Part shown: in pieces, positions 5,745 to 33,960 of the stretch
How the letters are laid out: each line of letters starts with the position of its first letter
How positions within the stretch are numbered: the first letter of the stretch is position 1
Origin: Actinomycetaceae bacterium
Lineage (GTDB): Bacteria > Actinomycetota > Actinomycetes > Actinomycetales > Actinomycetaceae
NCBI GenBank assembly: GCA_030524055.1
Contig: JAUNHH010000019.1
Span: forward strand, 1 to 44,946
Length of the DNA stretch: 44,946 bases
Reading direction: 5' to 3'
The notes under the pieces: model-generated
Told to the model about the DNA's origin: nothing
Seen by the model: only the letters and a program-made list of their open reading frames with translations
Databases searched by the model: none
Translations under genes and position numbers: made by a program

Positions 5745-6712
5745 AAGGTAGCGAGGAGCTGGTCAATCACTCCCACACAGTGGATTGCCGTTAAACCTGC
5801 ACCCTCGTGTGTTTGTCGATCTGAACGCACAACTTTCCCGGCGCTGACGGCGGGAAGCTGCTGGTAGAGCTGATTCTTTTGGAGCCCTTCCCATTCGGCG
5901 GTGTCATTGACCAACATAATAATGGCGGTGGCGTCTTTACCGGCAGCAAGAAGTTCCTCAGGGGAAAATTCTGCTTTCTCGCTAGAAATGGCCGTGGAGA
6001 ATGCTTGAGAGGGTTGAGCCCCGAGGTCTTGTAATACGAGCGATAGGAGCCGGCCACTACGGATTTCGACTTTTTCTGAGTCATACCCAATAGGTGCAAA
6101 AGTATTGCCCGAGAGTTTCTCGGCGTACTTTTTCTTTGTTTCCGCGACGGCCGCATCGTAACGGGAAATGACTTCTTTGGCTTTGTCTTCTGTGCCCGTT
6201 GCTTTCGCGACGAGGTTAAGGTCGTCTTGCCATGTGCTGGAGTCCTGGTCGCCAATAACGAGGACGGGGGCGATTTCCTGTAATTCAGGGAGAATCTCTT
6301 TTACGTCTTCTTCTCGGGAAATAATGACGTCAGGTTCTTTTGCAGCAATCGCTTCGATATTGATGTCGTCATCTAAGAAAATGGCTTCGGCGCCAGCTTT
6401 CTTTGCTGCTTCTAATTCTTTGGCGAGTGGAGATTCGAGGCCATTTTCGCTTTTTTCTTGATTCGGGTAACCGGTCAGGGGGAGGCCAAGGGAGAGCACA
6501 ATATCAAGGTCTCGTCGCCCTTCAAGAACCACGACCGAATCGATGTCAGCAGGGACCGTGACCTCGCCAATACTAGTGGTGACAGTGCGTGAACTTTGAG
6601 ACTGGTCGTTAGTTGATGAGGCGGAGTTACCGCTTTGGGTTGCCGTGCCAGTGCAGGCGGAGAGGAGAAAAAGGGGAGCAAGAAGTGCGGCAGCAAGCGC
6701 TTTACGAGACAT
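5741..6712 (-). CDS. Iron-siderophore substrate-binding lipoprotein
   Basis: A 323 aa lipoprotein with a short signal peptide and lipobox LSAC (Cys20), followed by a Ser/Thr/Gln-rich tether. The mature part is a class III (FepB/FhuD-like) binding protein: VTVPADIDSVVVLEGRRDLDIVLSLG opens the first lobe and EPDVIISREEDVKEILPELQEIAPVLV completes it, with a long linking helix mid-protein. It captures ferric siderophore outside the membrane and delivers it to the permeases. It is the first gene of the operon. There is no ribosome site; the -10 hexamer TAGCCT lies six bases before the ATG, so the mRNA is probably leaderless and the whole promoter is covered by the iron box. Confidence 0.93.
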   Translation of the reverse strand: MSRKALAAALLAPLFLLSACTGTATQSGNSASSTNDQSQSSRTVTTSIGEVTVPADIDSVVVLEGRRDLDIVLSLGLPLTGYPNQEKSENGLESPLAKELEAAKKAGAEAIFLDDDINIEAIAAKEPDVIISREEDVKEILPELQEIAPVLVIGDQDSSTWQDDLNLVAKATGTEDKAKEVISRYDAAVAETKKKYAEKLSGNTFAPIGYDSEKVEIRSGRLLSLVLQDLGAQPSQAFSTAISSEKAEFSPEELLAAGKDATAIIMLVNDTAEWEGLQKNQLYQQLPAVSAGKVVRSDRQTHEGAGLTAIHCVGVIDQLLATL

Positions 6713-8353: not shown

Positions 8354-8373
8354 GGGGAGCTGCGGCGCGCAGT

Positions 8374-8445
8374 ACACCAGACGTGCAGAGGGCGACATTT
8401 TTGGCCGAAAATCGGGATTTTTGTCGCCCTTTGCCCGTTTGGTGT
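8374..8445 (-). repeat. 72-bp palindromic repeat, copy A (inverted orientation)
   Basis: Outer arms ACACCAGACGTGCA and the matching ...CGTTTGGTGT, then GGCGACA/TGTCGCC-type inner arms, a T5/T5 bubble and an inner stem CCGA/TCGG. Its reverse complement aligns over the full length with copies at 10128, 19699 and 38294. It sits between convergent genes and may terminate both. Confidence 0.8.
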
Positions 8446-8463
8446 TTTTCCACAGTGGGATTG

Positions 8464-9189
8464 TTATACGGGTCGATTCTTTAGCACCGCTGGAACTTTG
8501 CTTCGTGCCGCCAAGAAGGAATGAAGGTCTCGATCGAGCATTGCGGCCAATCGCATGGTGTCCTCGTGAAGTTGTTGCGCACTCACCCGTACTTTTTGCC
8601 CGTTGAGGGGGATTCCATTGATTAACGGCTCATGATGAGCAACCCGATTGCGTAAGTCATTGACTCTCCCAACGATCGACAGGGCATATTCTCTATTCCA
8701 TCGTTGTTGATCTTTACGTGCTTGTTGGCGTCCTCCGGGGAATGCTTTGTCTAATACGCCGCGCCATAGTATTTCGTAATCGCAGCGAACTCTTCTGGGT
8801 TCTATCCCGTAGTAGTCACCTTTATCGAGAAGGCGTCGCCAGAAGCCAAATGTACATTGAGCGATGAGTTTTCCTGATGTCTTTTGGGGGTCCTTAATCT
8901 GTTTCCAAGCGAGGTTTAAGGCTTTCAGAGTTCGATCATCGAGGGGAAGCGCGAGGTTTGAATACCAATCGTGTCCCCATTTGATTTCGAGTTGTTGTGC
9001 CATTGCATTGCGAAGCGCTACTTCGAGGATGGCGAGGTCAGCAAGGAATGCGACAGCTAGGTCACGGTCCCAAAGATACAATTCGCGTGCTTTATCGCGG
9101 TCTCCATTGGCTGCATTTAGATAAGTGGACATACGTATTGGTGTGATCGACTTATCCAGAGCAATCTGATGCTGACTTGCCATAGTCAC
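8464..9189 (-). CDS. Abi-like (HEPN-type) protein
   Basis: A 241 aa cytoplasmic protein of the actinobacterial Abi-like family. It opens with MSTYLNAANGDRDKARELYLWD, has the conserved LAILEVALRNAMAQQLE helix, CTFGFWRRLLD, and near residue 182 LRNRVAHHEP. That last stretch contains an R-x4-H motif, the catalytic signature of HEPN RNases. Related Abi_2-type proteins abort phage infection by cleaving RNA, and this one may do the same. The GTG at 9189 has GAGAGGAT eight bases upstream; an ATG at 9183 is the alternative. It stands alone between convergent and divergent genes with no obvious antitoxin, and its base usage is slightly more A+T-rich than its neighbours, compatible with transfer. Confidence 0.8.
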   Translation of the reverse strand: MTMASQHQIALDKSITPIRMSTYLNAANGDRDKARELYLWDRDLAVAFLADLAILEVALRNAMAQQLEIKWGHDWYSNLALPLDDRTLKALNLAWKQIKDPQKTSGKLIAQCTFGFWRRLLDKGDYYGIEPRRVRCDYEILWRGVLDKAFPGGRQQARKDQQRWNREYALSIVGRVNDLRNRVAHHEPLINGIPLNGQKVRVSAQQLHEDTMRLAAMLDRDLHSFLAARSKVPAVLKNRPV

Positions 9190-9400
9190 TGGACTAATCC
9201 TCTCATGTCCGGTAGATTAAGCAATGAAGTCCCCGGCATACGCCTCTGTCGAACTTGAGTCGGCATGCAGCCGGGGTTTGTTTTACCAGCCTAACGTTTA
9301 TTTGCGCTTGTGGGGTCCTAATGGATCCGATTTGCTAAGCAGAACAAGGAAGTTCGTCGTGTTTGTGTTGTGTGCTGTCGTTCACGGAAGACATCAGTGC

Positions 9401-9412
9401 ACGAGGGCGGGG
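9401..9412. repeat. Single arm of the ACGAGGGCGGGG repeat
   Basis: A lone arm in the 296-base gap (9190-9485) between the Abi-like gene and the DCC gene. A 72-codon plus-strand ORF here has no coding signs, and nothing else stands out. Confidence 0.7.
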
Positions 9413-9485
9413 TGCGCCCTTTATCGGGTAGGTTCTATCTAGGCAGGTACGACTCACCAATAGTCCACCGGGAAGGGAGATACTG

Positions 9486-9914
9486 ATGAGCGCTGCACCA
9501 GTTCACCTGGTTTTCGACGGGCATTGTGGGTTCTGCACACGGGCTGCTGGATGGCTTCGCCGTCTTGACCGCCGCCAGCGGGTTCAGATCTATCCAGCGC
9601 AAAGACCCGGTGTTTTAGAACGTTTCGCCCTAACCGAGAATGACGCGCAAAAGGCTGCATGGGCATTTACCGGTAGACGTCGGACAGCAGGCGCCGCGGC
9701 AGTCAATCTCGTTCTTGACGCCGCCCTTGGGGTCAAGGGCTTCTCAAGTTTCTACAACCTGCCTGGCATTCATTGGATCCAAGACCGCCTTTACCAGTGG
9801 GTCGCTGACCACCGGTACATGCTGCGGGGAGTCACACCCTGGTGCGAAGAACATCCCGAAGATTGTGGACCCTCCCAAAGCGCCAGCGGCTGCTCCCTAC
9901 GCCCACGACCGTAA
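9486..9914 (+). CDS. DCC-family (DUF393) thiol-disulfide oxidoreductase-like protein
   Basis: A 142 aa protein with the family signature VFDGHCGFCTRAAGWL at residues 9-24, containing DxxCxxC, and a conserved FYNLPGIHWIQDRLYQWVADHR block. The family is thioredoxin-fold-like and named for the DCC motif; its electron partners are unknown. The ATG follows AAGGGAGATACTG. The C-terminus carries two more cysteines (TPWCEEHPEDC). It lies in the accessory-looking stretch between two glycosyltransferases. The fold assignment is confident, the role is not. Confidence 0.88.
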   Translation: MSAAPVHLVFDGHCGFCTRAAGWLRRLDRRQRVQIYPAQRPGVLERFALTENDAQKAAWAFTGRRRTAGAAAVNLVLDAALGVKGFSSFYNLPGIHWIQDRLYQWVADHRYMLRGVTPWCEEHPEDCGPSQSASGCSLRPRP

Positions 9915-9941
9915 ATCTCGCTGCCCCGCCACCTGCTCGAA

Positions 9942-9977
9942 TGCCAAAAGTTTACCGCTTTCGGTAGAGTTTTGGCA
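9942..9977. terminator. Hairpin downstream of the DCC gene
   Basis: TGCCAAAA...TTTTGGCA enclose an inner ACCG/CGGT pair around CTTT. It lies 28 bases past the DCC stop codon. There is no T-run, so termination is uncertain. Confidence 0.45.
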
Positions 9978-10127
9978 GTCGGGTCGCCGTAGGGGGTTGC
10001 TGCGTGGGGTAGGGGCCCGCTGCCGGGGAAGTCGCTGCGAGAGGCTGCCACAGTGCAGACGCCCAAACAGGCAACTGCGGTTAGCCAATCGGCACCGCGT
10101 CCTCGTGTACCGGTGTCCGCAGGAATG

Positions 10128-10198
10128 ACACCAAACATGCAAACGGCGACAAAAAGGCCGAATTTCGGCCAAAAATGTCGCCCTTTGACCGTCTGGTG
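10128..10198 (+). repeat. 72-bp palindromic repeat, copy B
   Basis: ACACCAAACATGCA...CCGTCTGGTG outer arms, GGCGACA/TGTCGCC, an A5/A5 bubble and a perfect inner stem GGCCGA/TCGGCC. Between convergent genes. Confidence 0.8.
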
Positions 10199-10295
10199 CG
10201 CGCCGCCCGGGAAGTCGCCTGGCACACCCCGCCTCGACTGCTCCCTACCAGCTGCCCGAGAAGCAGTACGGCACGGGCCGCCTACTACCGGCCTG

Positions 10296-10721
10296 TCACC
10301 ACTGGCTAAAACGAATCACAACCAGCTGTTTTTCCTCGAGGCCTCGGAGGAATTCTTCGCTGATGTCCTTAAGGCGGACGCTCATAGCGCTGTCAGGTTG
10401 AATGCGCTTACGCGGGCTCCATGCGCGAATAAGACCGATCCGAGCCTTCCGCCCATACGACTCAGCAAGAAAATCCAGCCAGGCGCGAATCTGAGAATAG
10501 GTGAGTTCGCCAGGCGCGCAGTCGTCAGGCGAACCAATCAGACTTCGACAGTCGCACATTCGCGGACTGACAGCCACAGCGCGAGGCATAGCGGCGACTT
10601 TAGGTGAATCGACGGTCAGGTCTACCGTCTCAGGAAAGACGCCAAGAATAGATCGGGTGTTCGTAGGAAAATCAGTATCGTCACCAGTATCCGGCAGGAG
10701 CCAGATATTTATAAAACACAT
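10296..10721 (-). CDS. Unrecognised 141 aa protein with a CDC motif
   Basis: The ATG at 10721 is chosen because AAAGGAGCACCAT precedes it; a longer frame to 10781 lacks a ribosome site. The protein is soluble-looking, with no signal or membrane segment. Notable blocks are MCFINIWLLPDTGDDTDFPT at the N-terminus, RMCDCRSLIGSPDDCAP near residue 55 (three Cys, possible metal or redox site), SQIRAWLDFL, and a C-terminal RGLEEKQLVVIRF strand. I do not recognise a family. It is monocistronic, facing the copy-B palindrome at its 3' end and an inverted-repeat element at its 5' side. Confidence 0.6.
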   Translation of the reverse strand: MCFINIWLLPDTGDDTDFPTNTRSILGVFPETVDLTVDSPKVAAMPRAVAVSPRMCDCRSLIGSPDDCAPGELTYSQIRAWLDFLAESYGRKARIGLIRAWSPRKRIQPDSAMSVRLKDISEEFLRGLEEKQLVVIRFSQW

Positions 10722-10802
10722 ATGGTGCTCCTTTATCCGCTCATGTGCAGGACCATAATTCATGATAGCTGCCGGGGTCATTTGGTTGCGAAAGAGTACT
10801 TC

Positions 10803-10840
10803 GCCCCGCCCTCGTCAATGACAACCCACGAGGGCGGGGC
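10803..10840. repeat. Inverted pair of the G+C-rich repeat
   Basis: GCCCCGCCCTCGT and ACGAGGGCGGGGC form perfect 13-bp arms around a 12-base spacer. It lies between two divergent gene starts, so it is not simply a terminator. Confidence 0.85.
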
Positions 10841-10872
10841 CAGGCCCACGCGACAGCCAGCACAGCCCCACG

Positions 10873-10878
10873 TACCAT
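10873..10878 (+). promoter_or_regulatory. -10 element TACCAT of a leaderless mRNA
   Basis: Six bases separate it from the ATG at 10885, and no ribosome site exists there. Confidence 0.5.
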
Positions 10879-10884
10879 CACTCC

Positions 10885-12117
10885 ATGAGGATTCTTCTCC
10901 ACGCATGGGGGTCACGCGGAGATGTCCAGCCAATGACGGCACTGGGCTGCGGCCTTGCTGACCGCGGACACCACGTCGCTATTGCTGCTGCCCGCGACTT
11001 TGAGGACATGATTGCCGCCTACGGCCTGGACTATGAGCCCATTGATGCCAGCGTCGCGGACCTGTCCACTAGTGCGGCGGGTCGCGATTGGCTGGGTGGC
11101 CAGGCCGCAACACAACGCCAAGAATTGCGCGCAATGCAGGATTTCTTTGCGGCAGCGGCACCCCCGATTGCTCAGATGCTGATCCGCACCAGCGGCTATG
11201 ACCACACTGTGACAACCCCTTTCCTTCTGGAATCAGCGCTCACCCTCGGCAGACACTCCCTTACAGTGGCCATGTTGCAGCCAGATTTCACCACTAGCGA
11301 CGGGCGCTCCACAATTGCCGCCCTCCACCCAGGAAAGAGCCTAGTCAACCGTTTCGCGGGCCATATCTACGAACAGGCGACCAGGCGTTTCTTCGCCTCT
11401 TTCGCCGAAGCGACCTGCCGCCTGAGTGATCGGCCGCGAATGAGTTTCCGCGACTATCACAGTCGCAAGGCGACAATCCCGCACCTCCTGGCTTCATCGC
11501 CTGCCATCACACCGCTTCCTGCGGATAATCGCCTCAATGCGACGGCGACAGGATTTTGGCAGCATCACACTCCCGAGGACTTTATTCCGCCTGAGCCGCT
11601 AGCGGACTTCCTCGAGTCCGGACCACCCCCGATTTACGTGGGTTTCGGGTCAATGAGCAGCCACGATGCGGCAACAACAGCGCACCTCATTACCGACGCC
11701 CTTCGCATATGCGGCCTGCGAGCCGTTGTCCACCGGGGTGCAGCAGACCTGGACGTCGCTAATGACATGGTGCTCAGCGTGGGCAGTATTCCGCATTCGT
11801 GGCTGCTGCCTCGCGTTTCGGCTGCCGTACACCATGGGGGAGCGGGGACAACGGCGAGCGCCATCGTCGCAGGAATCCCGCAGGTAGTGATTCCGCATAT
11901 GGGTGACCAACCCTTCTGGGGGCGCCGGATGCACGAGCTGGGCGTGGCTCCGCCTCCGATTCCCAGAAAAGGCCTGGATGCCGCGGTTCTGGCTGCCGCC
12001 ATGACGGCAACTCGCGACCAGGACATGCGCGGCCGAGCAGCGCGGTTAGGGGCAGTCGTCGCCGCTGAAGATGGCGTGTCCATCGCGATTGCTGTCTTAG
12101 AGAGCAGATGGGGATAG
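10885..12117 (+). CDS. Sterol/macrolide-type glycosyltransferase (GT1), copy B
   Basis: A 410 aa GT-B enzyme, paralogous to 7136-8353. It starts MRILLHAWGSRGDVQPMTAL, has IYVGFGSM near residue 251, and the donor-binding HHGGAGTTASAIVAGIPQ near residue 315 followed by GDQPFWGRRM. The predicted job is transfer of a sugar to a hydrophobic acceptor such as a lipid, sterol-like compound or drug. The ATG has no ribosome site and a -10 hexamer six bases upstream, so it is probably leaderless. The stop codon is followed within five bases by a palindromic element shared with the convergent ATPase gene. Confidence 0.85.
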   Translation: MRILLHAWGSRGDVQPMTALGCGLADRGHHVAIAAARDFEDMIAAYGLDYEPIDASVADLSTSAAGRDWLGGQAATQRQELRAMQDFFAAAAPPIAQMLIRTSGYDHTVTTPFLLESALTLGRHSLTVAMLQPDFTTSDGRSTIAALHPGKSLVNRFAGHIYEQATRRFFASFAEATCRLSDRPRMSFRDYHSRKATIPHLLASSPAITPLPADNRLNATATGFWQHHTPEDFIPPEPLADFLESGPPPIYVGFGSMSSHDAATTAHLITDALRICGLRAVVHRGAADLDVANDMVLSVGSIPHSWLLPRVSAAVHHGGAGTTASAIVAGIPQVVIPHMGDQPFWGRRMHELGVAPPPIPRKGLDAAVLAAAMTATRDQDMRGRAARLGAVVAAEDGVSIAIAVLESRWG

Positions 12118-16809: not shown

Positions 16810-17700
16810 CTATTTCAGATGGATGAGTGCGGTCGGAGGTGAGCCTGGCGCGAGAGGCACAGTAAAAACCGTGCGAGTTGTGAGGACCGCGAAGTGACGC
16901 CCGGATGGGTGCCAGGCATAGGCTTGGGCGTCAGGTAGATCCAGGGCGCGAATGAGTTCGCCTGTGGAGGACCACAGCCGCCCACCGCTATTTCCCGGAC
17001 CAGTCACAAGGTGGGTTCCGTCAGGTGACCAGAGGGCTTCGTGAATCCAGGGAGACGGTGGCCCGCCCTCGTCCCCATGATCACAATGGAATAGGACCTC
17101 ACCAGTAGAGGCTTGGAAGGTTGTGGCCCGGCACTCCTCATCTGTACTGGTAGTGATGAGAGATGAATCTGGGCTCCACGATAGGGAACACACATAGGCG
17201 GTATGGGTGAGAATGCGCTGTTGACCAGAGGCGAGGTTGGTGAGAACAGCCTCGTTCCCAGCAGCGGTGGCGATCCACTGGCCATCAGGACTCCAACTGA
17301 TACTGGTAACGGCAATCCAATGGGTGAGGTGAAGACTGTGGGTGAGGGTGCCTGTCAGCGGGTGGTAGATCCGGAGTTCATTGCGAGTTGGGCACACAGC
17401 GATCTGGTGGGAATGTGGGTTCCAGGAACTTGCGCCTTCGCCATGGTGAGCACGGATTTCACCTGTTATAGACCTGACGCTAATAGGGAAGGTAGCGCCT
17501 ATTGTGGTCTGCCCGCCAGTAAGAAGAAGGGAAGAATCAGGACTCCACGATAGCGTCCCCCATGATTCAGCAAGTTGCAGGTGGGGCTGGTTGGCATCGG
17601 CGTCCCACAGGGTGAATTGTTCAGGAGTACTCATCGCCAGAAACTTCCCGTCAGGGGACCACTGGAGGGAATAGATCAACGAGCTATGGGAGTCTGGCAT
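16810..17700 (-). CDS. WD40-like beta-propeller protein
   Basis: A 296 aa protein built of about six WD40-like blades, each with a version of SWSPDG: SLQWSPDGKFLA, TLSWSPDSSLLLTG, SISWSPDGQWIATA, SLSWSPDSSLITTS, EALWSPDGTHLVTG and AYAWHPSGRHFAVL. There is no signal peptide, so it is likely a cytoplasmic scaffold. The peptide GDEGGPPSP near residue 210 comes from a repeat arm at 17061-17072 and lies in a loop between blades. A -10 hexamer TAGACT six bases before the ATG suggests a leaderless mRNA. It lies 39 bases before the monooxygenase on the same strand, but that gene has its own promoter signal. Confidence 0.8.
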   Translation of the reverse strand: MPDSHSSLIYSLQWSPDGKFLAMSTPEQFTLWDADANQPHLQLAESWGTLSWSPDSSLLLTGGQTTIGATFPISVRSITGEIRAHHGEGASSWNPHSHQIAVCPTRNELRIYHPLTGTLTHSLHLTHWIAVTSISWSPDGQWIATAAGNEAVLTNLASGQQRILTHTAYVCSLSWSPDSSLITTSTDEECRATTFQASTGEVLFHCDHGDEGGPPSPWIHEALWSPDGTHLVTGPGNSGGRLWSSTGELIRALDLPDAQAYAWHPSGRHFAVLTTRTVFTVPLAPGSPPTALIHLK

Positions 17701-20828: not shown

Positions 20829-21029
20829 TGGTGGGTAAATGGCATGGATGCGCTGACTTTGACGACTCTTACTCTGTGGGAAATGGTCACGATTCGCCCA
20901 TTCTTAACGTGTTCATGCGAAACGCCGATATGACCAGCTAAAAGGACGCAATTATTGTCCGACCTATTGAAGGTTACCCGGTATGGGAATAGAATCTTTG
21001 TGCTAAGGCTCTAACCAGGAAGGTTGTTA

Positions 21030-23090
21030 ATGACACGCCGCGCCCTGTCCACCTTTGTCTCTACTCTTGCCCTGACCAGCATGTTCCTTACCGCTGGAGC
21101 CACTGCCATTGCAGACGATGGCGCTACAGGCGAAGAAAAACTCCCCACATCCCCGGCCCCCGCCGCCAGCGTGCCGAACTTCGGCACCACCACGCGGCCC
21201 GATGGCACTCCCATTGCTGTGGTGGTTGCCGGTGGAAATGGAGGAACGCTCAATATTGTTGACCTGAATAAAGGCACATCCACCGCCAAAGAATTCGCCC
21301 CAGTAGACACCGATATTCAAGCCTGGGGCTTTGCCACAATGAATGACGCCGATAAATCAGTTCTTATTGGCGCAGGTAAAGGTCTCTACCAATACAATCC
21401 GCGCACTGACACAGTCACTGATCTGACCAGTCACGCCTCATATAACAGCGTTAAGGGCAGCTTTAACCAGATCTGGGATATTGCTATTGACGAGTCAGGC
21501 ACCGCCTATATCGCTACTTCCGCTGATGGTAGTGCCCCGATACTCACGTGGAATGCCTCCAAAGGGTGGGGAACCCTGAGTGGCGCTGCCCCCGTTGCCC
21601 AGGGCACTCAATATGCCCAAGCCATTGATTACGCGGGCGGAAAACTCTATGTTGGCACCGGACCGCAAAACCCGCGCGTCTATGAAATTGATGTCCGGAA
21701 TGGCGCGAAAAAGGAAATCGCCCTGCCTGCGGTAGCTCGCGGAAATGGGACTTACCAGAATCTCGAAGTTCACGGCGGCATTCTTTATGTGCGTAACCTC
21801 GGCGAAACTGGAACAACCGCATATAACCTCAGCAATGGGCAATCAGATAACCTACGCGGCTATGTTGGGCATTTCGTGCCACGCCCAGGAAATAACTCCT
21901 CCATTTATTTCTGGCATAAAGGCGCCTCAAAGCCAGCACAAATTATCGAATACAATCCGACCACTAAAGAAAAAACAGTGGTCCTGGAAAGCGACAATAT
22001 TCTTGGCCGCCTCAGCCCAGCCAGTTGGGCCACGCCCGATATTTTCGTGTCCAACGATATGAACACAGGGCAGTTGACTATTGCTCGCGGAAAAAATGTT
22101 GCTCTACACGATGACCTGGTGAAATCTTCTGGCCGAAATATTCAGGCCCTCACCGCATCGAATAATGGGAAACTCTATGCGTCATGGTACATGACCGCGC
22201 CCGGAGTCTTGCAGGTCACCCCCGGAAATACTGCGGCTTCGACCTCGTACACGATTCTGGACACTCCTTCTGCCCAAGCTGAAGGCATGGCCGCTAGGGG
22301 AGACCAGCTGGTGACCGGCCTGTACCCAGGCGGAAAAGTAGGGTTACGGTCTATCGCAGCTGCCGACGCCCCGACGCAGACAGTTTCCATTGGTGCGAGC
22401 CAGGACCGTCCCTACGCTGTGATTCCGCTGGCTGATGGGCGTTACGCTCTTGGGTCAGTCCCGGGATACGGTGACCTTGGTGGAGCCCTGACCATCTATG
22501 ACCCGAAGAAGGGTGACAGCGCAGATGCTGCGCAGGTTTTCCCCTTCGAGTCCCTGAAATACGCCGACGGGGTTCCCCGTGATCTGCTGAAAGACCTGTC
22601 ACCTGTGTCTTTGGCGGAGCGAGACGGCAAAATCTATATGGGTACCACCGTGCGTGGTGGACACAAGACGGTTGCCAGCCCTCAAGAAGCTTATGTCGTC
22701 GAATTTGATATGGCCAGCCAAAGCGTCACGCGTATCGTCAAAGCTTTCGAGGGTCAGGCTGCTGTCACCGCGCTAACGGTTGGTGACGATGGAGTCCTAT
22801 ACGGCACCACTGGGCGATACCTGTTTAAGATGGACAAGAACTACACGATTACGGGGCAAAGTATTTCCCCCGAGGGTGCAACAGCCCACAATCGTGCCGG
22901 GATTGTCTACGAGGGCGGGGAGGTTTTCGCTCTTATTGCAGGCTCTCTCTATGCGGCACCTACCTCGGATCTGAGCGCAGCAAAAGTGATTGCAGATCGA
23001 AACATTAATACCCTAGCTTTAGGGGCAGATGGTTATCTATACTATTCACGTGGCGCGGAGTTGTTCCGCAACGGGTACGCGAAGCGCTGA
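21030..23090 (+). CDS. Secreted beta-propeller protein
   Basis: A 686 aa exported protein. The signal peptide (MTRRALSTFVSTLALTSMFL then TAGATAIADD) is likely cleaved near residue 29. The rest shows repeated blade-like patterns (GTLNIVDLNKGT, GLYQYNPRTDTVTDLT, KLYVGTGPQNPRVYEIDV, KIYMGTTVRGGHK, VLYGTTGRYLFKMDK) resembling PQQ/SMP-30-type propellers. No catalytic motif is evident, so an extracellular binding or lyase-associated role is possible. ATG 21030 has AGGAAGG six bases upstream; TTG 21024 is too close to it. YEGGE near residue 629 overlaps a repeat arm (22909-22920). A strong hairpin follows the stop. Confidence 0.75.
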   Translation: MTRRALSTFVSTLALTSMFLTAGATAIADDGATGEEKLPTSPAPAASVPNFGTTTRPDGTPIAVVVAGGNGGTLNIVDLNKGTSTAKEFAPVDTDIQAWGFATMNDADKSVLIGAGKGLYQYNPRTDTVTDLTSHASYNSVKGSFNQIWDIAIDESGTAYIATSADGSAPILTWNASKGWGTLSGAAPVAQGTQYAQAIDYAGGKLYVGTGPQNPRVYEIDVRNGAKKEIALPAVARGNGTYQNLEVHGGILYVRNLGETGTTAYNLSNGQSDNLRGYVGHFVPRPGNNSSIYFWHKGASKPAQIIEYNPTTKEKTVVLESDNILGRLSPASWATPDIFVSNDMNTGQLTIARGKNVALHDDLVKSSGRNIQALTASNNGKLYASWYMTAPGVLQVTPGNTAASTSYTILDTPSAQAEGMAARGDQLVTGLYPGGKVGLRSIAAADAPTQTVSIGASQDRPYAVIPLADGRYALGSVPGYGDLGGALTIYDPKKGDSADAAQVFPFESLKYADGVPRDLLKDLSPVSLAERDGKIYMGTTVRGGHKTVASPQEAYVVEFDMASQSVTRIVKAFEGQAAVTALTVGDDGVLYGTTGRYLFKMDKNYTITGQSISPEGATAHNRAGIVYEGGEVFALIAGSLYAAPTSDLSAAKVIADRNINTLALGADGYLYYSRGAELFRNGYAKR

Positions 23091-25084: not shown

Positions 25085-26233
25085 CTAGTCTATGGTCACA
25101 CTGACTTCTGTCGCTGCTGCTATTGCGCGATCCTGAGCCAGCCCGGCATTTTCTCCCCTCGCGCTAATATTGCCAATCCGTGAACGATAGGTGCCAATAT
25201 CGCTAATAGTGTCTCCGAGATCTTTCGATGCATGCCACTGTGGATTGCCAGGATAGGCTCGAAGCTTTTCTAGGCCATGTATTGCCCGGAGTATGCCAGG
25301 TTTTTCTGCGTATACACTGACGTGGCTAAATCCTCCTGTCACAGTGCGCTGTGGCGGAAGACTAATGGGAACACCAAGAGCGTGTTCGACGGCCATCCGA
25401 TAGGGGTCGTAATTGGTGGTAGCAAGTACTCCGGGAGTAATGAGTGCCCCTGCCATCCGGCAATTGATTTCTACCAATTCATAGCCGTGTGCTGTCCCGA
25501 TAAACTCAATATGTGCCTGTCCGAAAGTATAATCAAGGGCTTCGGTAATGGTGCGTGCCCAGTGTTCTACCTGTTTTTCCCACTCGCTATTTGCGGCCCA
25601 CGGGAAGGATTTCACAGTCTCCGTAAAATAGGGGCGCCCTGACAGAATCCGATTCGTCAGCCCAAAGAAGTAGAATTGGCTACTATCCCGCCATATTTCT
25701 GCCGAATAGAGGGGGCCGAAATGGAAGGGCTGTTGCAGGCACTCCTGCGGTGAAAACGTCCCCTGCGCAATTAGATCATCGAATTCTTCTTGGCTGTGCA
25801 CCAATATGACACCGATTTTCCCTGTGCCGCCGCGGGGCTTGATAATTCTTGGCCACCCCTGCCTAGAAGATATAAGGCCACACTGTTCAAGGCGCTCCTG
25901 AACATACTTTTTATCACGAAGGCGGCGAAGAGTATCCGCTGGGGCAAATTGCGGAAAAGCGAATTCGTCCCGAAGTTCGGCGGCAACAATACCCCAGGTA
26001 TCTGTCACGCTAAAAACCTGCGCGATCTCCTGACGATGCCGCTCAATATAGTCGCGAATCGCATTATGATCTCGCGTGGGGAATTGGACGACTTGCGCAG
26101 CACTGGTGCGACCGTAAAGGCTCGGGTCCTCCGCCAAGACAACCAGCGCATAACCGTACTCGGCAGCCACAGTGGCCATCCGCTCGACTTCTGACATAGC
26201 CTCAATCGCCAGCAGTATTCGTTGCTGATTCAC
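25085..26233 (-). CDS. ATP-grasp ligase-like protein
   Basis: A 382 aa enzyme of the ATP-grasp fold: a pre-ATP-grasp domain (VVLAEDPSLYGRTSAAQVVQ), then RIIKPRGGTGKIGVILV (ATP-binding lysine and glycine-rich loop) and GYELVEINCRMAGALITPGV (metal-binding Glu/Asn). Such enzymes join a carboxylate to an amine through an acyl phosphate, in peptide, siderophore or amino-acid metabolism; relatives often accompany MFS exporters. The GTG at 26233 follows AAGGAGGAGTGCCAC. It lies 72 bases downstream of the small membrane protein gene on the same strand and may share its promoter. A repeat arm (26273-26285) sits in that gap. Confidence 0.85.
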   Translation of the reverse strand: MNQQRILLAIEAMSEVERMATVAAEYGYALVVLAEDPSLYGRTSAAQVVQFPTRDHNAIRDYIERHRQEIAQVFSVTDTWGIVAAELRDEFAFPQFAPADTLRRLRDKKYVQERLEQCGLISSRQGWPRIIKPRGGTGKIGVILVHSQEEFDDLIAQGTFSPQECLQQPFHFGPLYSAEIWRDSSQFYFFGLTNRILSGRPYFTETVKSFPWAANSEWEKQVEHWARTITEALDYTFGQAHIEFIGTAHGYELVEINCRMAGALITPGVLATTNYDPYRMAVEHALGVPISLPPQRTVTGGFSHVSVYAEKPGILRAIHGLEKLRAYPGNPQWHASKDLGDTISDIGTYRSRIGNISARGENAGLAQDRAIAAATEVSVTID

Positions 26234-26628: not shown

Positions 26629-27819
26629 CTACTCTTTCGCGGCTTCGTTACTGGCAGCCCACCCAGCAATATCTCCTTTATTGATTGCCAGCGCAATCAA
26701 ATCAGGAAATGCATCCGGCGTACATGCAAAAGCGGGAATGCCCAGGGCCGCTAATTGAGCGCCCACTTCCTTATCGTAACTGGGTTTACCATCGTCACTG
26801 AGAGCGAGAAGCGTAATAACCTGAACGCCCTGTTGCTGGAATTTCGCTAAGCGCCGCACCATTTGAGGCCGATCAGAATCATAAAGATCAGAAATCAGGA
26901 CCATCACAGTTTCCCGTGGACGCTCCACTAAAGGCTCGCAATACGCTAAAGCGCGTGATGTATCTGTACCGCCACCTAATTGGGTGCCGAAAATTAGATC
27001 AACAGGATCCGATAACTTCTCCGAAAGATCAACAACAGCCGTATCATAGGCAATAAAACGTGTGCGCAGAGCAGAAATAGACGCGAGGACGGAGGAAAAA
27101 ATTGACGCATAAACAACAGAGCTAGCCATTGACCCAGATTGGTCTACGACCAGAATAATATCCCTTTCAAATCCGGAACTTGCTCGACCGTACCCGACAA
27201 GTTTCTCCGGGATAACCGTGTTTTTCTCCGGAATATAGTTCGCTAAATTCGCGGCAATCGTCCGATTCCAATTAATATCCCCCGGACGGGGACGATTGGT
27301 CCGTAAAGACCGCCGTAAAGCCCCGCGAACACTTTGCCGAAGATGATCTTCGAGACGATTTTTGACCTCCTCGACAACGCGATTCACCACTTGGCGAGCA
27401 GTATTTTTTGCTGTCGCAGACATGACGTTACTTAACGACGCTAAAGTCGCCACCATATGCACGTCAGGTTCAATAGTGTCCAGCATTTCCGGCTCTAAAA
27501 GAAGGTGCCGCAAACCTAAACGCTCAATTGCGTCATTTTGCATGACCTGGACAATGCGCGACGGAAAATACGTGCGAATATCACCCAACCATCGCGCTAC
27601 TTTAGGCGCAGAAGCCCCTAAACTGCCTGTGGATTTCTTCCCAGAAGAATCGCCACCAGTATTCCGGTCATAGAGCGCTGCCAAAGCAGCATCAATAGCA
27701 GCATCCTGACTACTTAACGCCGGGCTAGTGCCACCCGCTAAATCAGGTGACTGACCAAGAAGAAGCCGCCACCTCCGATCACGTTCACTTAAAGGAGCCT
27801 GTGAAATAGCCTCATTCAT
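26629..27819 (-). CDS. VWA-domain protein of the MoxR/SWIM operon (YehP-like)
   Basis: A 396 aa protein with a helical N-terminal half and a C-terminal von Willebrand A domain. The MIDAS metal site is visible as DQSGS (226-230), GGGTDTS near 285 and LISDLYDSD near 310. VWA proteins coupled to MoxR ATPases are thought to recruit substrates or metals for the ATPase. The start overlaps the DUF5682 stop by four bases (ATGA). It is the last gene of the five-gene operon. It corresponds by layout to E. coli YehP (CoxE-like VWA); that equivalence is from memory. Confidence 0.88.
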   Translation of the reverse strand: MNEAISQAPLSERDRRWRLLLGQSPDLAGGTSPALSSQDAAIDAALAALYDRNTGGDSSGKKSTGSLGASAPKVARWLGDIRTYFPSRIVQVMQNDAIERLGLRHLLLEPEMLDTIEPDVHMVATLASLSNVMSATAKNTARQVVNRVVEEVKNRLEDHLRQSVRGALRRSLRTNRPRPGDINWNRTIAANLANYIPEKNTVIPEKLVGYGRASSGFERDIILVVDQSGSMASSVVYASIFSSVLASISALRTRFIAYDTAVVDLSEKLSDPVDLIFGTQLGGGTDTSRALAYCEPLVERPRETVMVLISDLYDSDRPQMVRRLAKFQQQGVQVITLLALSDDGKPSYDKEVGAQLAALGIPAFACTPDAFPDLIALAINKGDIAGWAASNEAAKE

Positions 27820-30137
27820 TGGGCCGCCTCCACAATTCGATCGATTGTTGCCATTGCTGCACTCACCACAGATAAATCCACAGTGTCATCATTATCGGCC
27901 CCGCCCTCGTCACTATCGAGATTCTTGACCTTTGTCGCTATTGAGCGTCGTTCGGGAATATCCCAATCCCCGAAAGCACGCCTCAATGGCGGCAAAACAG
28001 AAAGGAAATGCTCCTCTGATAAGCCAATAACCCACTGGTCGAGAACCCGGAGGAGACCAGGCGAATGAATCAGTAGCAGGGCTGAACCCGTTAATAATCC
28101 TTCAGCCCATAAAGCTTGATCCGCTGGAGAATGTCCACCGGATAAGAAAAGTGACATGCGTTGACGCAGATTGTCGCTATCAATCCGGCCGGCATTACTG
28201 AGAATACGGACAAAACGACCCGCAATATGCGGAGGAATATTCCGCTTGCGGGAGACGCGATCCACAGTCGGATACCAGCGATCGTGAATGGCATTATCAA
28301 GCAGCGACATGACTGACTCTACGGAATTAATATGCCTGAGCATATTTACCGCTTCCTCATCAGAAATGCCACTTAAAGCCGGATATAATCCCACGCAAAT
28401 ACGTTCAATGAGGGAAGAAATAATATGCCCTAAATGCTCCGCATTTGTTCTCCGCACATCCCCATAACGCTGGGCGCGCACCAAATCAGGCAAAGCCCGC
28501 AATAACTGGCTGACATCATGTGTTTGCGCAGCGCGCTCATCCAATAAACCTAAAAGGGTGTCCAACGCTTCTGGCAAATGCGCAAGAAGGGAGCGTCGCA
28601 CCCCGGCAGTCACATCCGCCAAGGTGTCCGTCGCATCCAATAAACGTGCCGTCGCCGCGCTGGCTACAGTTGTTCCCCAACGGGAAGCCTCGACAACATT
28701 AATGGCCAGCTCTGGCTCCCACCGCAAACGCCACTCTTCTTTAAAGGTGCCCGTCGAGGACGCATTCCCTGGCACACCCCAATACACATCAAGAATGGCC
28801 AAACGCCGCAAAAAATGCGAACGCTGAAGATCTAAGTCTTTACGCAGGTCCAAGGTGAGGGTTTTTTCGGACGCCTGCTGTTTCACACGCAGGGTCTTGG
28901 CTTGCGCTGTCATATCCGTTTCAAAAGGCGTGCGCGGAACCTCATCAGGCACAGCGCCCAAAAGGTCACCCACCACGGCCTCACGTGTCACTAGGTCCAA
29001 GGCAAGATCGCTGCCTTCACACAGAACCGCTAGCGTCGATTCCTGAATTTCAGACAGACCCGGGTGGGGGCGTCCGCGCACAGCTGCCAAAGTCTGGGCA
29101 AGACGCACCCCCTCAATGACATGTGCCGACGAGGTTGGCAGATCATTGTCCCGCAAAACCTTGCCCACATGCGTAAACCAGCGTTCAATAGGGTGGTCAG
29201 GAGCAGTAAAAAGGTGGTGGTACCAGCCGGGTGAGGCAACGCCCGCCCCGTAGCCACGCGCTTGCGAGAGACGCCCATGCGACCACGGTACCCACGTGAT
29301 CTGGGTTTTTAGTTTGGGTAGGCCTTTGAGGAGGGCATTATCAGCGCTGGCCGCCACTTTCTTTTGCAAAGCGGGCACATGATACGCCCCGCACACGACA
29401 GCGATTCGCTCAAAGGAGCGGGCCAGTGGCCGCAGAATCTTCCGCATATGGGCTTCGCGCAGAAGCGTCTGCGGATCATCTTCATGGTCTTCACGCACAG
29501 CCGTCATCGCTTCAGCAATGGCGTCAAAAATCTCGAAGGCAGATTCCTCTGACGAGGCCGGGGCACGCTGCGCTCGTGACGCACGCTGTTCCACCAGGTC
29601 CTCCCACCAGGTTTCCGGGTCATCATGACCTGCGGCGCGGGCGAGAAGAGTAATCGGGTCTGCAGGTGGGGTAGTGGGATCCGCGAGTGTTGAGGGGCCA
29701 GTTACAGCGGATGCACTGTCACTGGTGGGAGCAGCCCCGCCCTCGTCACTAGTGTCTGCGCTGACCTCACCACCAGAGTCTGCCCCGGAAGCGCCGTCTA
29801 CACTTTCTTCTTCTTGCCGACTGCATGCTAAGGAAAGAGACGTCGGCAGGTCCATAAAACGGACCTCGCGCCCCTGCGACAGCGCCCAATCCATCGCCTG
29901 CCATTCCGGCGAAAAAATAGCGAAAGGCCAAAATGCACTGCGCCTGGGATTGCCCACCTCCCAGGCTGAAAGAGCAATAGGAGGAGTCAGTCCAGCGCAA
30001 TGGACCATCAGCGGATCCGCGTCAGCTGGCCCTTCAATCACCACAATCTCAGGATCGAACTCCTGCAGTGCCGCCACAAGCGAACGTGCAGACCCCGGCC
30101 CGTGGTGCCGAATCCCAAAAACACGTGTCTGGCTCAC
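27816..30137 (-). CDS. DUF5682-family protein (YehM-like)
   Basis: A 773 aa uncharacterised protein. The N-terminus reads RVFGIRHHGPGSARSL (His11, His12), followed by VVIEGPADAD and near residue 250 VVCGAYHVPAL. This spacing of a His motif, IEGP and a second GxxH recalls EreA/ChaN/TraB-type proteins, an inference. The rest is largely helical. GTG 30137 is preferred because it overlaps the ATPase stop as GTGA, like the other junctions; ATG 30155 is possible. Two repeat arms are translated, giving DEGGAAP (29734-29746) and DEGGAD (27897-27910), and a third (29552-29564) gives APASS. All fall in low-complexity linkers. It is the fourth gene of the operon. Confidence 0.85.
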   Translation of the reverse strand: MSQTRVFGIRHHGPGSARSLVAALQEFDPEIVVIEGPADADPLMVHCAGLTPPIALSAWEVGNPRRSAFWPFAIFSPEWQAMDWALSQGREVRFMDLPTSLSLACSRQEEESVDGASGADSGGEVSADTSDEGGAAPTSDSASAVTGPSTLADPTTPPADPITLLARAAGHDDPETWWEDLVEQRASRAQRAPASSEESAFEIFDAIAEAMTAVREDHEDDPQTLLREAHMRKILRPLARSFERIAVVCGAYHVPALQKKVAASADNALLKGLPKLKTQITWVPWSHGRLSQARGYGAGVASPGWYHHLFTAPDHPIERWFTHVGKVLRDNDLPTSSAHVIEGVRLAQTLAAVRGRPHPGLSEIQESTLAVLCEGSDLALDLVTREAVVGDLLGAVPDEVPRTPFETDMTAQAKTLRVKQQASEKTLTLDLRKDLDLQRSHFLRRLAILDVYWGVPGNASSTGTFKEEWRLRWEPELAINVVEASRWGTTVASAATARLLDATDTLADVTAGVRRSLLAHLPEALDTLLGLLDERAAQTHDVSQLLRALPDLVRAQRYGDVRRTNAEHLGHIISSLIERICVGLYPALSGISDEEAVNMLRHINSVESVMSLLDNAIHDRWYPTVDRVSRKRNIPPHIAGRFVRILSNAGRIDSDNLRQRMSLFLSGGHSPADQALWAEGLLTGSALLLIHSPGLLRVLDQWVIGLSEEHFLSVLPPLRRAFGDWDIPERRSIATKVKNLDSDEGGADNDDTVDLSVVSAAMATIDRIVEAAQ

Positions 30138-31219
30138 AATACCGCCTGCTGGCATGCGTCGTAGAACTCTGACCAGTCATCACGATCATGGACGACAGTG
30201 TGCACATACTCTTCCCAAATAGCCCGATCAGCAACCGGATCTTTGACCACCGCCCCGACAATGCCCGCAGCAATATCTGCAGGACGCAAAATACCGTCCC
30301 CAAAGTGAGCAGCAAGAGCAAGACCACCGGTCACCACTGAAATCGCTTCCGCGGCACTCAGCGTTGACGACGGTGACTTCACTGACGTCTGCTGATCCTC
30401 CGTGCGCCCTTGACGCAACTCCCGGAAAATTGTTACGACCCGGCGGATTTCCGTCATCGCATGGGAAGTATCAGGAAGCTGCAGCGAGGCACCCAACTCA
30501 GCAACCCGCTTGGTGACAATGGCCAGTTCTTCTTCAGCTGAGGCGGGCAACGGCAAAACCACCGTATTAAAACGTCGCCGCAAAGCCGCAGAAATATCAT
30601 TCACGCCTCGGTCACGATCATTTGCCGTGGCAATCACATTAAAACCAGGGCGCGCCTGAACTTCGATCCCTAACTCCGGCACGGGCAGGGTCTTTTCTGA
30701 AAGGACAGTAATCATGCCGTCCTGGACATCAGAAGGCATACGGGTGAGTTCTTCAACGCGAGCAATCGCGCCTTTTTCCATTGCCGTCATAATCGGTGAG
30801 GGAACAAGAGCGGCAGCGGAGGGGCCTTCAGCTAAAAGACGTGCATAATTCCAGCCATAACGCACCGCTTCTTCAGTAGTGCCCGCAGTGCCCTGAATAA
30901 GAAGAGTCGAATTTCCGGACACTGCCGCCGATAAATGTTCTGACACCCAGGATTTCGCTGTTCCTGGAACGCCTAATAACAGCAGAGCGCGATCGGTCGC
31001 TAAAGTTGCGACGGCCACTTCAATAAGGCGACGATTGCCCACATATTTCGGGGAAATGACCGTCCCATCAGGTAATGTCGTACCCATCAGGTATTCGACG
31101 ACAGCCCACGGAGACAGGGCCCAGTTTTCTGGACGTGGGCGAGAATCAATAGCCTGTAGTGCTTTTAATTCGCTGCTAAATGCCTGTTCAGCGTGAGGGC
31201 GAAGAATCGACTGGGACAT
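30134..31219 (-). CDS. MoxR-type AAA+ ATPase (YehL-like)
   Basis: A 361 aa ATPase. Walker A GVPGTAKS is at 83-90, the Walker B region ARVEELTRMPSDVQDGM at 153-169, sensor 1 ATAND (Asn200) and the arginine finger in LRRRF near 215. In most MoxR proteins Walker B reads DEINRA; here it is VEELTR, a Glu-Glu variant seen in the YehL-type subgroup as I recall. It is expected to form a hexameric ring that remodels a target together with the VWA protein. It starts 12 bases after the DUF5691 gene and overlaps DUF5682 by four bases. Confidence 0.9.
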   Translation of the reverse strand: MSQSILRPHAEQAFSSELKALQAIDSRPRPENWALSPWAVVEYLMGTTLPDGTVISPKYVGNRRLIEVAVATLATDRALLLLGVPGTAKSWVSEHLSAAVSGNSTLLIQGTAGTTEEAVRYGWNYARLLAEGPSAAALVPSPIMTAMEKGAIARVEELTRMPSDVQDGMITVLSEKTLPVPELGIEVQARPGFNVIATANDRDRGVNDISAALRRRFNTVVLPLPASAEEELAIVTKRVAELGASLQLPDTSHAMTEIRRVVTIFRELRQGRTEDQQTSVKSPSSTLSAAEAISVVTGGLALAAHFGDGILRPADIAAGIVGAVVKDPVADRAIWEEYVHTVVHDRDDWSEFYDACQQAVL

Positions 31220-31231
31220 TGAGTGTGCTCC

Positions 31232-32626
31232 TTAGAGAGAAAGGGATTGGTGGATTTGCTGGCGAATATGGATAATGGTGAGGGCTTGCCCTGCCGTATA
31301 TCCTCCCTGCAGTGCAACGGATAAACGGGTGCTGATTTCCTCGCTGACCGAGATATCGCAATAGGTGGTGAGAAAAAGGGTGAGATCATGTAGATAAAAG
31401 GAATACCCCTTGTAATCTACGTGTTCTATATAGGTCATAATTGTCCGTGACAATTCGGCGCTTAGAGACCTGTCAGGCTGTGCAAGTAATATCTTGAACG
31501 CATCCCACACTGCACCGAATTCACGGGAAGAAAGGAAGGAAAGCAGGGCATCAACCATTTCCTTCTCAGGTAAAATGGCAGCCAATTCACCCAGGGGAAG
31601 AAACTGTAATAGGGTGCGCGCTGCATTATGGTCTTTCCAACGGATAATAGAAGTGGCAAATGCCCTTCCCAAATTCGTGGGATGCCCTTCAATAATCGTG
31701 TCGAGGGCCAGAGCCTTCACGTCCAAACCAATCTCGCTCAGACGGTGAGGGGGAATAAGCTCTACGATCTTATTGATTCTCTCGTAGGGCCGTTGGGCAC
31801 TCTCCAACATGGTCCACCCCAATGGATCTGTTGTCCGCGAAGGCATCTCCGGCGGGTAGACCGTCAACGAGCCGGGATATTTCAGTGCATCGCGAAAACT
31901 CTCGCGCGCAATCTCTATTGCACGGTCGATATAAGCGCTTTGATCGACAAGAGCTAATAATTCACCGGCTCCTTTGCGGACACTCTGTTTCCTGTCGTGA
32001 ACCGCCAGCATTAATACGGGCTCATCCTCAGGTGACAGACAATCACGCAGAGTCGCAATATACTCTTCGCGATTCTTATCGCGCTTATGGAGGGCAGAGG
32101 CAATATACTCTCGTGCCTTTTCAGGTTCGCTCGCATGTAGATCTTTCAGGAACGACACGCGGCGCTGTACAGAATCTGACTCCCAATCGGCCGCTGTGGG
32201 CAGCTCCAGAGCGACATCGAAAAATCCTGGCTGTGTCACCTCAATAAACCACCGCCCTCGCGCGCCCACAACGCGGGACAAACGCTCAGCAAAATCCCTT
32301 TTCTGAGCACGCGAGGCATTCTTATTAAGGTGAGTGAGCTCTGGAATAAGCTCAGTGGGAAGGGCAAGATGACATTCTTCTAAAAGGCGAAATGCTTCCC
32401 GAATAAGTGTATCTTTAGTGGGAGAACTCTGGGCAAAAATATGCCGGAATGCGGAGGTAAAAGCAGTGGGAGCTGACTCTACTTCCTGTGATGGTGCCTC
32501 CTGTATGGGGGCAATATCGTAGAAAGTAAAAGCGACTTGGTCAGCAACCGCAAGCCGTGCCGCATCAATAAGAATAGACTCCGGGCCGCCAATAAGGGCC
32601 GAATTCATCACCTGAGTCGAATTCAT
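31232..32626 (-). CDS. DUF5691-family helical repeat protein
   Basis: A 464 aa protein that is mostly alpha-helical, consistent with HEAT-like repeats (for example EEYIATLRDCLSPEDEPVLM then LAVHDRKQSVRKGAGELLAL). It is placed in DUF5691 by context and by the segment AERLSRVVGARGRWFIEV. The likely role is a scaffold within the SWIM-MoxR-VWA complex. Its ATG overlaps the SWIM stop codon as ATGA. Base composition is A+T-richer than the flanking SWIM gene. No catalytic motif is visible. Confidence 0.75.
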   Translation of the reverse strand: MNSTQVMNSALIGGPESILIDAARLAVADQVAFTFYDIAPIQEAPSQEVESAPTAFTSAFRHIFAQSSPTKDTLIREAFRLLEECHLALPTELIPELTHLNKNASRAQKRDFAERLSRVVGARGRWFIEVTQPGFFDVALELPTAADWESDSVQRRVSFLKDLHASEPEKAREYIASALHKRDKNREEYIATLRDCLSPEDEPVLMLAVHDRKQSVRKGAGELLALVDQSAYIDRAIEIARESFRDALKYPGSLTVYPPEMPSRTTDPLGWTMLESAQRPYERINKIVELIPPHRLSEIGLDVKALALDTIIEGHPTNLGRAFATSIIRWKDHNAARTLLQFLPLGELAAILPEKEMVDALLSFLSSREFGAVWDAFKILLAQPDRSLSAELSRTIMTYIEHVDYKGYSFYLHDLTLFLTTYCDISVSEEISTRLSVALQGGYTAGQALTIIHIRQQIHQSLSL

Positions 32627-33960
32627 TTGCTGAACACCTGACCATCACTAAGAAAAGACAATGCGTGGATGTGGATTGTGCGTTGTGGTTCGATAATGGT
32701 CTGCGGTGTCCCGAAAATAGTCAGAGGCGACGTGCCCGCCCGGGCGAGAATTCTTTCCGCCCCATCAGATAATCGCACGCACTGGCCGCAGTTCATATAG
32801 ACACCACCATTTGCGTAGGTCAGCATGCCGTGAAGAGCCATTGGCCACCGCTCTAGCCAGGGATCAGCGCCTAAAGCGGTGGCATATTCGGCGCGCGCCG
32901 TATCAATATCCACCCCGCGAAAATCCCATCCTGACGTTGGAGTCAGGTCGCTATAGCGGGTGCCCACAATGGCGCGCAGAGGAAGAGCTCCAGGATAAAA
33001 ATGCAGATCCGCATCAAGAGTATTCGCAGTTGGCAGGTCGGTGGGAAGGGCAGCCCCCGCATGGGCGAAATGTAAAACCAGTGCCCACCGCCCAGTGTTT
33101 TGCCCTAACAGCCAGGTACGCCGTGTCGTTAACTGCTGTTCCTTTGACTCCTCAGAGCCAAGAATGACCCACTGGTCGCGCACAGCAGGGCTTTCCATCA
33201 CCTGTTCATTCGGCATAGGGAACCCAATATGGGCGCGTACTGTAGCTAGCAGATCCGCGGGGAGTTTATCTCGGCCTGCCCACGCCTGAGCTAAAAGGTG
33301 CAGCCGCCCATACTCGTGCGTCACCACCGTCGGCCAATCCGCAACAGTAGAGACCGTTGAGGCTAGCTTCCGAAGGCGCCCCGCCACACCAGGTGCCTGC
33401 GCATCGACCATGCGGGCCGCCATACGTCGTAGATTTTCAGCCCGGTCAGCCGAGTTGCTGGCCAGTCCCTCACGAATCTGGTCAATGAGGAAACGATCCA
33501 GATCATTCAGACCGGCGCCCACCCACTCTTCCCGCTGAGCGGCACGCTTGTCCGATGCCGCCACAGAAGCAGCGCTTTTCTCGCCGCCAGAGGCAGCATT
33601 CGCTGCTTTAGCGGCAGCTTTTTCAGCGCGCTCGGCCCGCCCTCGTGCCCACTCCTGAGCAAACTCAGCAATAGCGTCACTGTCAGCAATGTGCCCCTGC
33701 GACCACAGCATCAATAACGCAAGCGCGTGTTTACAGGGGAATTTGCGTGAGGGACAAGAACATTTATATGCCGGGCCAGAGGTATCTACACTGACTTGGT
33801 AGGGCTTTTTCCCACTACCCTGACATAATCCCCATAACAGGGCATCGTGAACACCCACGTCAGTCCATGAATGCGGGGCCGCCAATTTCAGGGCGGCTTT
33901 CATCGACGACGTGTCCGGCGCAACTTCCGCCACGCGCTCACTGCTCCAGGTTGGTCCCAT
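32623..33960 (-). CDS. SWIM zinc-finger protein (YehQ-like), first gene of the operon
   Basis: A 445 aa protein with the SWIM motif CxCx6CxH at Cys67, Cys69, Cys76 and His78 (YKCSCPSRKFPCKHALALL). It is preceded by GLCQGSGKKPYQVSVD, diagnostic of the SWIM subfamily that travels with MoxR/VWA genes. A charged Ala/Lys/Glu-rich linker follows (about 108-145). SWIM fingers bind DNA or protein. ATG 33960 is preferred over an upstream start at 34020 because the family N-terminus (MGPTWSSERVAEVAPD) begins there. TATTCT lies eight bases upstream with no ribosome site, so it may be near-leaderless. Confidence 0.88.
   Translation of the reverse strand: MGPTWSSERVAEVAPDTSSMKAALKLAAPHSWTDVGVHDALLWGLCQGSGKKPYQVSVDTSGPAYKCSCPSRKFPCKHALALLMLWSQGHIADSDAIAEFAQEWARGRAERAEKAAAKAANAASGGEKSAASVAASDKRAAQREEWVGAGLNDLDRFLIDQIREGLASNSADRAENLRRMAARMVDAQAPGVAGRLRKLASTVSTVADWPTVVTHEYGRLHLLAQAWAGRDKLPADLLATVRAHIGFPMPNEQVMESPAVRDQWVILGSEESKEQQLTTRRTWLLGQNTGRWALVLHFAHAGAALPTDLPTANTLDADLHFYPGALPLRAIVGTRYSDLTPTSGWDFRGVDIDTARAEYATALGADPWLERWPMALHGMLTYANGGVYMNCGQCVRLSDGAERILARAGTSPLTIFGTPQTIIEPQRTIHIHALSFLSDGQVFSK

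Follow-up and report, generated by a model that had tools for sequence, protein, structure and literature searches.

The closest described relatives of the present locus are found in Escherichia coli. Strain K-12 has two MoxR proteins, YehL and RavA, according to the available part of one paper (PMC3893208), and YehL is counted there and in a second paper as one of seven or nine named MoxR subfamilies (PMC3893208, PMC11432383). No function is given for YehL in the accessible parts of these two sources. A genome-reduced E. coli lacking part of the region from molR through yehQ was described as viable (PMC10652928), and yehM was altered in copper-evolved E. coli (PMC12409786). In the accessible parts of the yeh literature, no phenotype points to a target. 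For operons joining a SWIM zinc finger, an AAA and a von Willebrand protein no paper was found in the literature searched, and the names DUF5682 and DUF5691 occurred in none.

The window, a stretch of 44,946 nucleotides, carries on its minus strand five genes arranged head to tail and transcribed in the order SWIM, DUF5691, MoxR, DUF5682 and VWA (Table 1). Judged by sequence comparison, yehL-yehM-yehP-yehQ of E. coli is a sister form of this set. MoxR (3.3e-71), DUF5682 (5e-32) and VWA (1.9e-61 to YehP) have clear homologues there, which lie side by side in an unchanged order, and a SWIM protein belongs to both sets. In contrast to the window, the E. coli SWIM gene stands last instead of first, DUF5691 is missing and a DUF4132 protein (yehI) is encoded upstream. 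The two SWIM proteins share the finger alone, with no detectable similarity over the whole proteins. An earlier sequence-only reading had described the locus as resembling yehLMPQ with an added DUF5691. The relationship holds, but the gene order and the SWIM proteins differ, and E. coli has a large protein of its own, DUF4132.

RavA-ViaA of E. coli also combines a MoxR AAA+ protein with a VWA partner, and the VWA profile finds ViaA (5.1e-9). Here the similarity of single sequences is marginal (MoxR 0.006, VWA 0.013; MoxR profile 0.00086), and no DUF5682, DUF5691 or SWIM protein is named beside ravA-viaA. The MoxR-vWA ternary conflict systems, as far as the available text of PMC7159879 describes them, likewise consist of an AAA+ MoxR, a vWA and a further protein, but their partner proteins belong to other families and the window set has no PADLOC match.

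The gene set and its inheritance

The junctions between the five genes, in transcription order, measure -4, +12, -4 and -4 bases, and the overlap of MoxR and DUF5682 was read directly as GTGA. Open reading frames, Pfam families and junctions thus confirmed the earlier description of a five-gene operon with three 4-base overlaps and one 12-base gap. SWIM, DUF5691, AAA_5, DUF5682 and VWA_CoxE were the Pfam families over cut-off in the five proteins; no NCBIfam model passed its cut-off for any of them. For DUF5682 the GTG at 30137 was chosen as start; an ATG at 30155 would add six residues and lengthen the overlap to 22 bases. For the SWIM protein an ATG start was taken, with the open frame extending upstream to a TTG at 34020. 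The window's genome holds one DUF5682 gene.

Table 1. Coordinates of the operon genes in the window and of large proteins encoded upstream of MoxR in related loci
Feature	Position	Strand	Remarks
SWIM zinc-finger protein, 445 aa	32623-33960	-	PF04434 7.3e-7; putative target reader
DUF5691 protein, 464 aa, large partner of the SWIM protein	31232-32626	-	PF18944 7.5e-43
YehL-subfamily MoxR AAA+ ATPase, 361 aa	30134-31219	-	PF07728 (AAA_5) 1.4e-36
DUF5682 protein, 773 aa, candidate TraB/TIKI-type hydrolase	27816-30137	-	PF18934 3.8e-243
VWA (CoxE-type) protein, 396 aa	26629-27819	-	PF05762 (VWA_CoxE) 5.7e-43
1500-1700 aa protein upstream of MoxR, fused type, L150	12187-16782		no Pfam match
1500-1700 aa protein upstream of MoxR, fused type, L151	2431-6984		no Pfam match
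1500-1700 aa protein upstream of MoxR, fused type, L163	1451-6523		no Pfam match

Relatives of DUF5682 were collected from genome contigs with one genome per species. At least 439 were confirmed, and the best 80 of these, close to the subfamily of the window, were kept. Eight of the 80 were cut by contig ends, which left 72 loci to be judged. All five genes were present in 72 of 72. The order and strand of the window were found in 62 loci, one of them with a second VWA gene; in the other ten, all of the Streptomyces group, SWIM-DUF5691 is turned divergent from MoxR-DUF5682-VWA. The recurrence in every uncut locus shows that the grouping is not due to chance. Joint production of all five products is inferred rather than observed.

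Of 396 Actinomycetota genomes, 22 had DUF5691 above its cut-off and 24 had DUF5682. Both occurred in 21 genomes, where the pairs always lay at most 3.4 kb apart (Fisher p 1e-30). In a survey of 386 Actinomycetota genomes, 36 of 36 places with a YehL-type MoxR (E up to 1e-60) adjoined DUF5682; 33 of these were established by comparing two genome surveys, and three were fetched, from genomes in which only two candidates of the DUF5682 survey had been scored. The conservation proposed beforehand is hence borne out as co-inheritance of a unit, and scattered genes, which would have spoken against it, did not appear in the neighbourhood analysis. Pairwise locus distances correlated with 0.83-0.93 for the ten gene pairs over 73 loci, values reached in none of 300 permutations; as the comparison holds no unrelated control gene, shared ancestry alone may explain them. 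The five-gene set represents a known kind of machine in a variant of its own, conserved across many bacteria and so far little studied.

Further genes were recognised in the window. An uptake operon of the iron-siderophore type occupies positions 2882-6712; it is composed of genes for two FecCD permeases, an ABC transporter ATPase and a periplasmic binding protein. An Abi-like protein (PF07751; best stretch at only profile positions 28-78 of 184) lies at 8464-9189. A WD40 beta-propeller protein is encoded at 16810-17700, with an MFS transporter and a TetR regulator close by, and an open reading frame of 688 aa at 21024-23090 matched no Pfam family up to an E of 1e-4. The operon is flanked by an L-amino acid ligase-like ATP-grasp protein (25085-26233). 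The ATP-grasp flank was matched in 4 of 35 genomes of the genus and the MFS flank in 15 of 35, the own genome included in both counts; outside the window the best MFS match reached 50%. A good full-length relative of the ATP-grasp protein was present in only one other of the 35 genomes (54%), which suggests an accessory region. The set itself occurs in 5 of 35 genomes of the genus. The other four carriers have the fused form described below, so a gain of the window's type from elsewhere is probable. Among the best 80 of at least 439 relatives, those closest to it belong to Propionibacteriaceae, with 60% identity.

Conserved motifs and variant arrangements

MoxR shows the Walker A, Walker B glutamate, sensor and arginine residues of a predicted AAA+ ATPase: Walker A G83-x-PGTAK89, the Walker B site E156-E157, N200 and R215/R216. 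G83, K89, E157, N200 and R216 are present in 102 of 102 sequences and R215 in 101 of 102. The canonical Walker B motif has an aspartate before the glutamate; at this position E156 was found in all 102 sequences. MoxR is closer to YehL than to RavA (phmmer 3.3e-71 vs 0.006; 41% identity to YehL), these two E. coli proteins being the only ones compared, and it has the neighbours of the YehL subfamily, with VWA, DUF5682 and SWIM proteins encoded adjacently. The VWA protein carries the MIDAS pattern DxSxS...T...D as D226-x-S-x-S230, T285 and D311. D226, S228 and S230 are kept in 101 of 101 ungapped sequences, D311 in 102 of 102 and T285 in 99 of 102 (asparagine in three). With the motifs of both proteins intact, the MoxR-VWA pair proposed before appears well founded. 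The VWA domain spans residues 158-370 of 396, and the protein ends soon after with no added effector.

The finger of the SWIM protein reads C67-x-C69...C76-x-H78, and these residues are conserved in 80 of 80 ungapped sequences out of 83. For the remaining about 350 aa no Pfam family was matched.

The gene order of the window (class A) was also found in plasmid-collection records of Deinococcus, Rhizobium, Methylosinus and Hymenobacter. In Methylosinus the VWA protein is split over three open reading frames, in Hymenobacter (L141) SWIM and DUF5691 form a single one, and the Deinococcus and Hymenobacter records contain one small additional gene. A Fusobacterium record encodes SWIM, a 637-aa protein with no detectable similarity to DUF5691, MoxR, DUF5682 and VWA. 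In class B the order is large protein, MoxR, DUF5682, VWA and SWIM. E. coli, Iodobacter, L155-L157 and L160 have a DUF4132-like protein in the first place; a DUF4132-type gene precedes MoxR in L145 as well as in L155-L157 and L160. In L150, L151 and L163 the large protein is one of 1500-1700 aa (Table 1), and open reading frames of this size occupy the same position in L147, L152 and L161. Fifteen loci were examined for a CxC...CxH finger. It followed VWA in 12 (L147, L150-L157, L160, L161 and L163), lay upstream instead in L149 and was absent from L148 and L162. MoxR was not detected in L154. A third order, VWA-MoxR-DUF5682 without SWIM, occurs in L162 and L173-L175.

Seven loci encode DUF5682 and VWA in a single open reading frame (L147, L150-L153, L161 and L163; L150-L153 are four genomes of the same genus), and the fusion of SWIM and DUF5691 is found in the one locus named above. 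These natural fusions suggest contact between DUF5682 and VWA and between SWIM and DUF5691. Homology of the large partners to one another was considered and rejected, as hhalign gave at most 0.5% among DUF5691, the DUF4132-type and the 1500-1700 aa proteins. The SWIM proteins and their large partners are thus unalike while MoxR-DUF5682-VWA is kept, which points to these three as the core and to a recognition side that changes.

DUF5682 as a candidate TraB/TIKI-type hydrolase

DUF5682 has H11, H12, E35, E78, D96, R227, E228 and H253 as key residues. H11, E35, E78 and D96 are invariant in 104 of 104 sequences, and R227, E228 and H253 in 103 of 103 ungapped ones. The four proteins of the third gene order retain all these seven residues. 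Such invariant His, Glu, Asp and Arg residues look catalytic. Their motifs follow in the order GxRH...E...R...GAxH, with a spacing resembling that of TraB/TIKI hydrolases. The TIKI site is given as 2His/2Glu plus a basic residue in the part of PMC6254334 available to us. With regard to the TraB/TIKI/Ere/ChaN superfamily, DUF5682 shares the ordered H...E...R...GxxH signature at similar spacing; it differs by its length (773 aa, including an extended additional C-terminal region), by its MoxR operon and by the weak profile similarity.

TraB was found in only 1 of 198 Actinomycetota genomes, hence the comparison set consisted of YbaP and eight plasmid-collection records; L139 was left out, having no open reading frame with the motif sought. 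Against this shallow profile (nine sequences, Neff 3.1) hhalign gave DUF5682 a probability of 11.9% and a best score of 30.9. As controls, none of 59 column shuffles scored above 21.4, the reversed profile gave 14.1, and four other alignments stayed within 21.5. The two best local matches place H11/E35 and R227/H253 on TraB motif residues, in register; the second match alone has 0.2% and a score of 16.5, vs 16.0 for the third, which is off the motif.

A pattern of ordered His, Glu, basic residue and His, written after both families had been viewed, fits 7 of 9 TraB sequences and 75 of 76 DUF5682 N-terminal sequences, a set in which the window and E. coli are counted twice and which was preselected for R/K-HH-x-P, so that loci without this string (L148, L149, L162) are left out. 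Elsewhere it matched 0 of 2668 background open reading frames, 1 of 319 from the other four families and 0 of 3800 shuffles. With the middle motif included, the pattern fits 1 of 9 TraB sequences; this motif is not transferable. The Pfam TraB model gave E 0.21 in one of nine DUF5682 proteins, and a search of solved structures returned no match, which counts against a TIKI-type hydrolase.

The chances that DUF5682 belongs to the TraB/TIKI superfamily are about even. With His, Glu, Arg and His in the TraB/TIKI order and spacing it may be the catalytic subunit of the machine, for which the sequence support is weak to moderate. The hydrolase-like subunit suggested earlier is made more specific by this putative TraB/TIKI-like signature, which is new here.

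Proposed machine and alternative explanations

We tentatively regard the five proteins as one ATP-driven machine with a TraB/TIKI-type hydrolase subunit, in which SWIM and a large partner choose the target, and give this proposal slightly less than an even chance. The AAA+ ring of MoxR and the VWA adaptor would engage a specific protein or complex. DUF5682, the proposed hydrolase, would cleave or otherwise process what the ring presents. The target would be picked by the SWIM protein, held with DUF5691 or elsewhere with DUF4132 or another large protein. Formation of the complex, fold and catalysis of DUF5682 and the role of SWIM are the parts that we infer. The absence of the E. coli version from a genome-reduced strain counts against the proposal.

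Rather unlikely, but next in order, is a maturation chaperone that works without hydrolysis. MoxR and VWA would remodel or activate one dedicated client complex, in the way suggested for RavA-ViaA and Nuo; DUF5682 would be a scaffold or a cofactor-handling subunit. In keeping with this, the available part of PMC3893208 states that a VWA cofactor usually accompanies MoxR proteins, whose presumed task is the maturation of dedicated complexes, and the neighbours in the window look ordinary. The catalytic appearance of the invariant DUF5682 residues argues against it. Furthermore, among the window and the best 80 of at least 439 relatives, no candidate client turns up repeatedly within 10 kb in different genera, and neighbour clusters comprise at most 13 loci.

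A role in anti-phage defence or conflict, akin to the MoxR-vWA ternary systems and hinted at in the sequence-only reading, finds little room. Such systems exist (PMC7159879) and some MoxR-vWA systems are CRISPR-linked (PMC10910872), as far as the accessible parts of both papers show. The distribution is patchy as well (13 of 148 genomes, the own genome counted), and 34 of 72,556 plasmid records were positive, some plasmid copies lying near restriction, toxin-antitoxin or recombinase genes. Nevertheless, PADLOC detected none of its families in the five proteins at E up to 0.01, and the bpMoxR model scored 25.3 on the window, below its cut-off of 27. At least 80% of the 6.3-kb yehLMPQ locus is held by 5162 of 5426 E. 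coli genomes; the E. coli version is near-core. Among the best 80 of at least 439 relatives and the window, flanks are shared within genera (13 loci in the Streptomyces group, nine in the Kribbella group) and include metabolic and transport genes. Pattern scans of viral contigs confirmed no relative, and 1 of 50,697 phage records was positive, an unverified scaffold (L148). In this record, deposited as phage, MoxR, DUF5682 and VWA (7803-11450) lie beside DUF5717, so the phage label is doubtful and the scaffold may be bacterial. The lack of an added effector in the window VWA protein also disagrees with a conflict system, which we therefore consider quite improbable despite the patchy distribution.

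Equally improbable is nucleic-acid-linked repair or quality control, in which SWIM and, in E. coli-type loci, WGR and DUF4132 proteins would recruit the MoxR ring to DNA or RNA. WGR in yehF and DUF4132 in yehI upstream of yehLMPQ, as well as the DUF4132-type genes upstream of MoxR named above, agree with it, but YehF (WGR) as query matched only the two E. coli loci in 25 sources, and for the 20 neighbour proteins scanned, the 25 families listed out of 29 include no repair family. SWIM fingers also bind proteins.

MoxR-VWA machines are widespread and few have a known job. With a candidate catalytic subunit and named residues, the question becomes testable in E. coli K-12. If the proposed ATP-driven machine with its hydrolase subunit is true, a TIKI-type hydrolase would join the ATP-driven protein-processing machines and DUF5682 would gain a function. 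A bolder form, to which we assign a small probability, takes DUF5682 as an unrecognised TIKI-type protease run by the MoxR ring via the VWA adaptor, with exchangeable recognition partners (SWIM and DUF5691, DUF4132 or other large proteins). In that case it would be a new kind of bacterial ATP-powered protease, with a sister form in nearly every E. coli.
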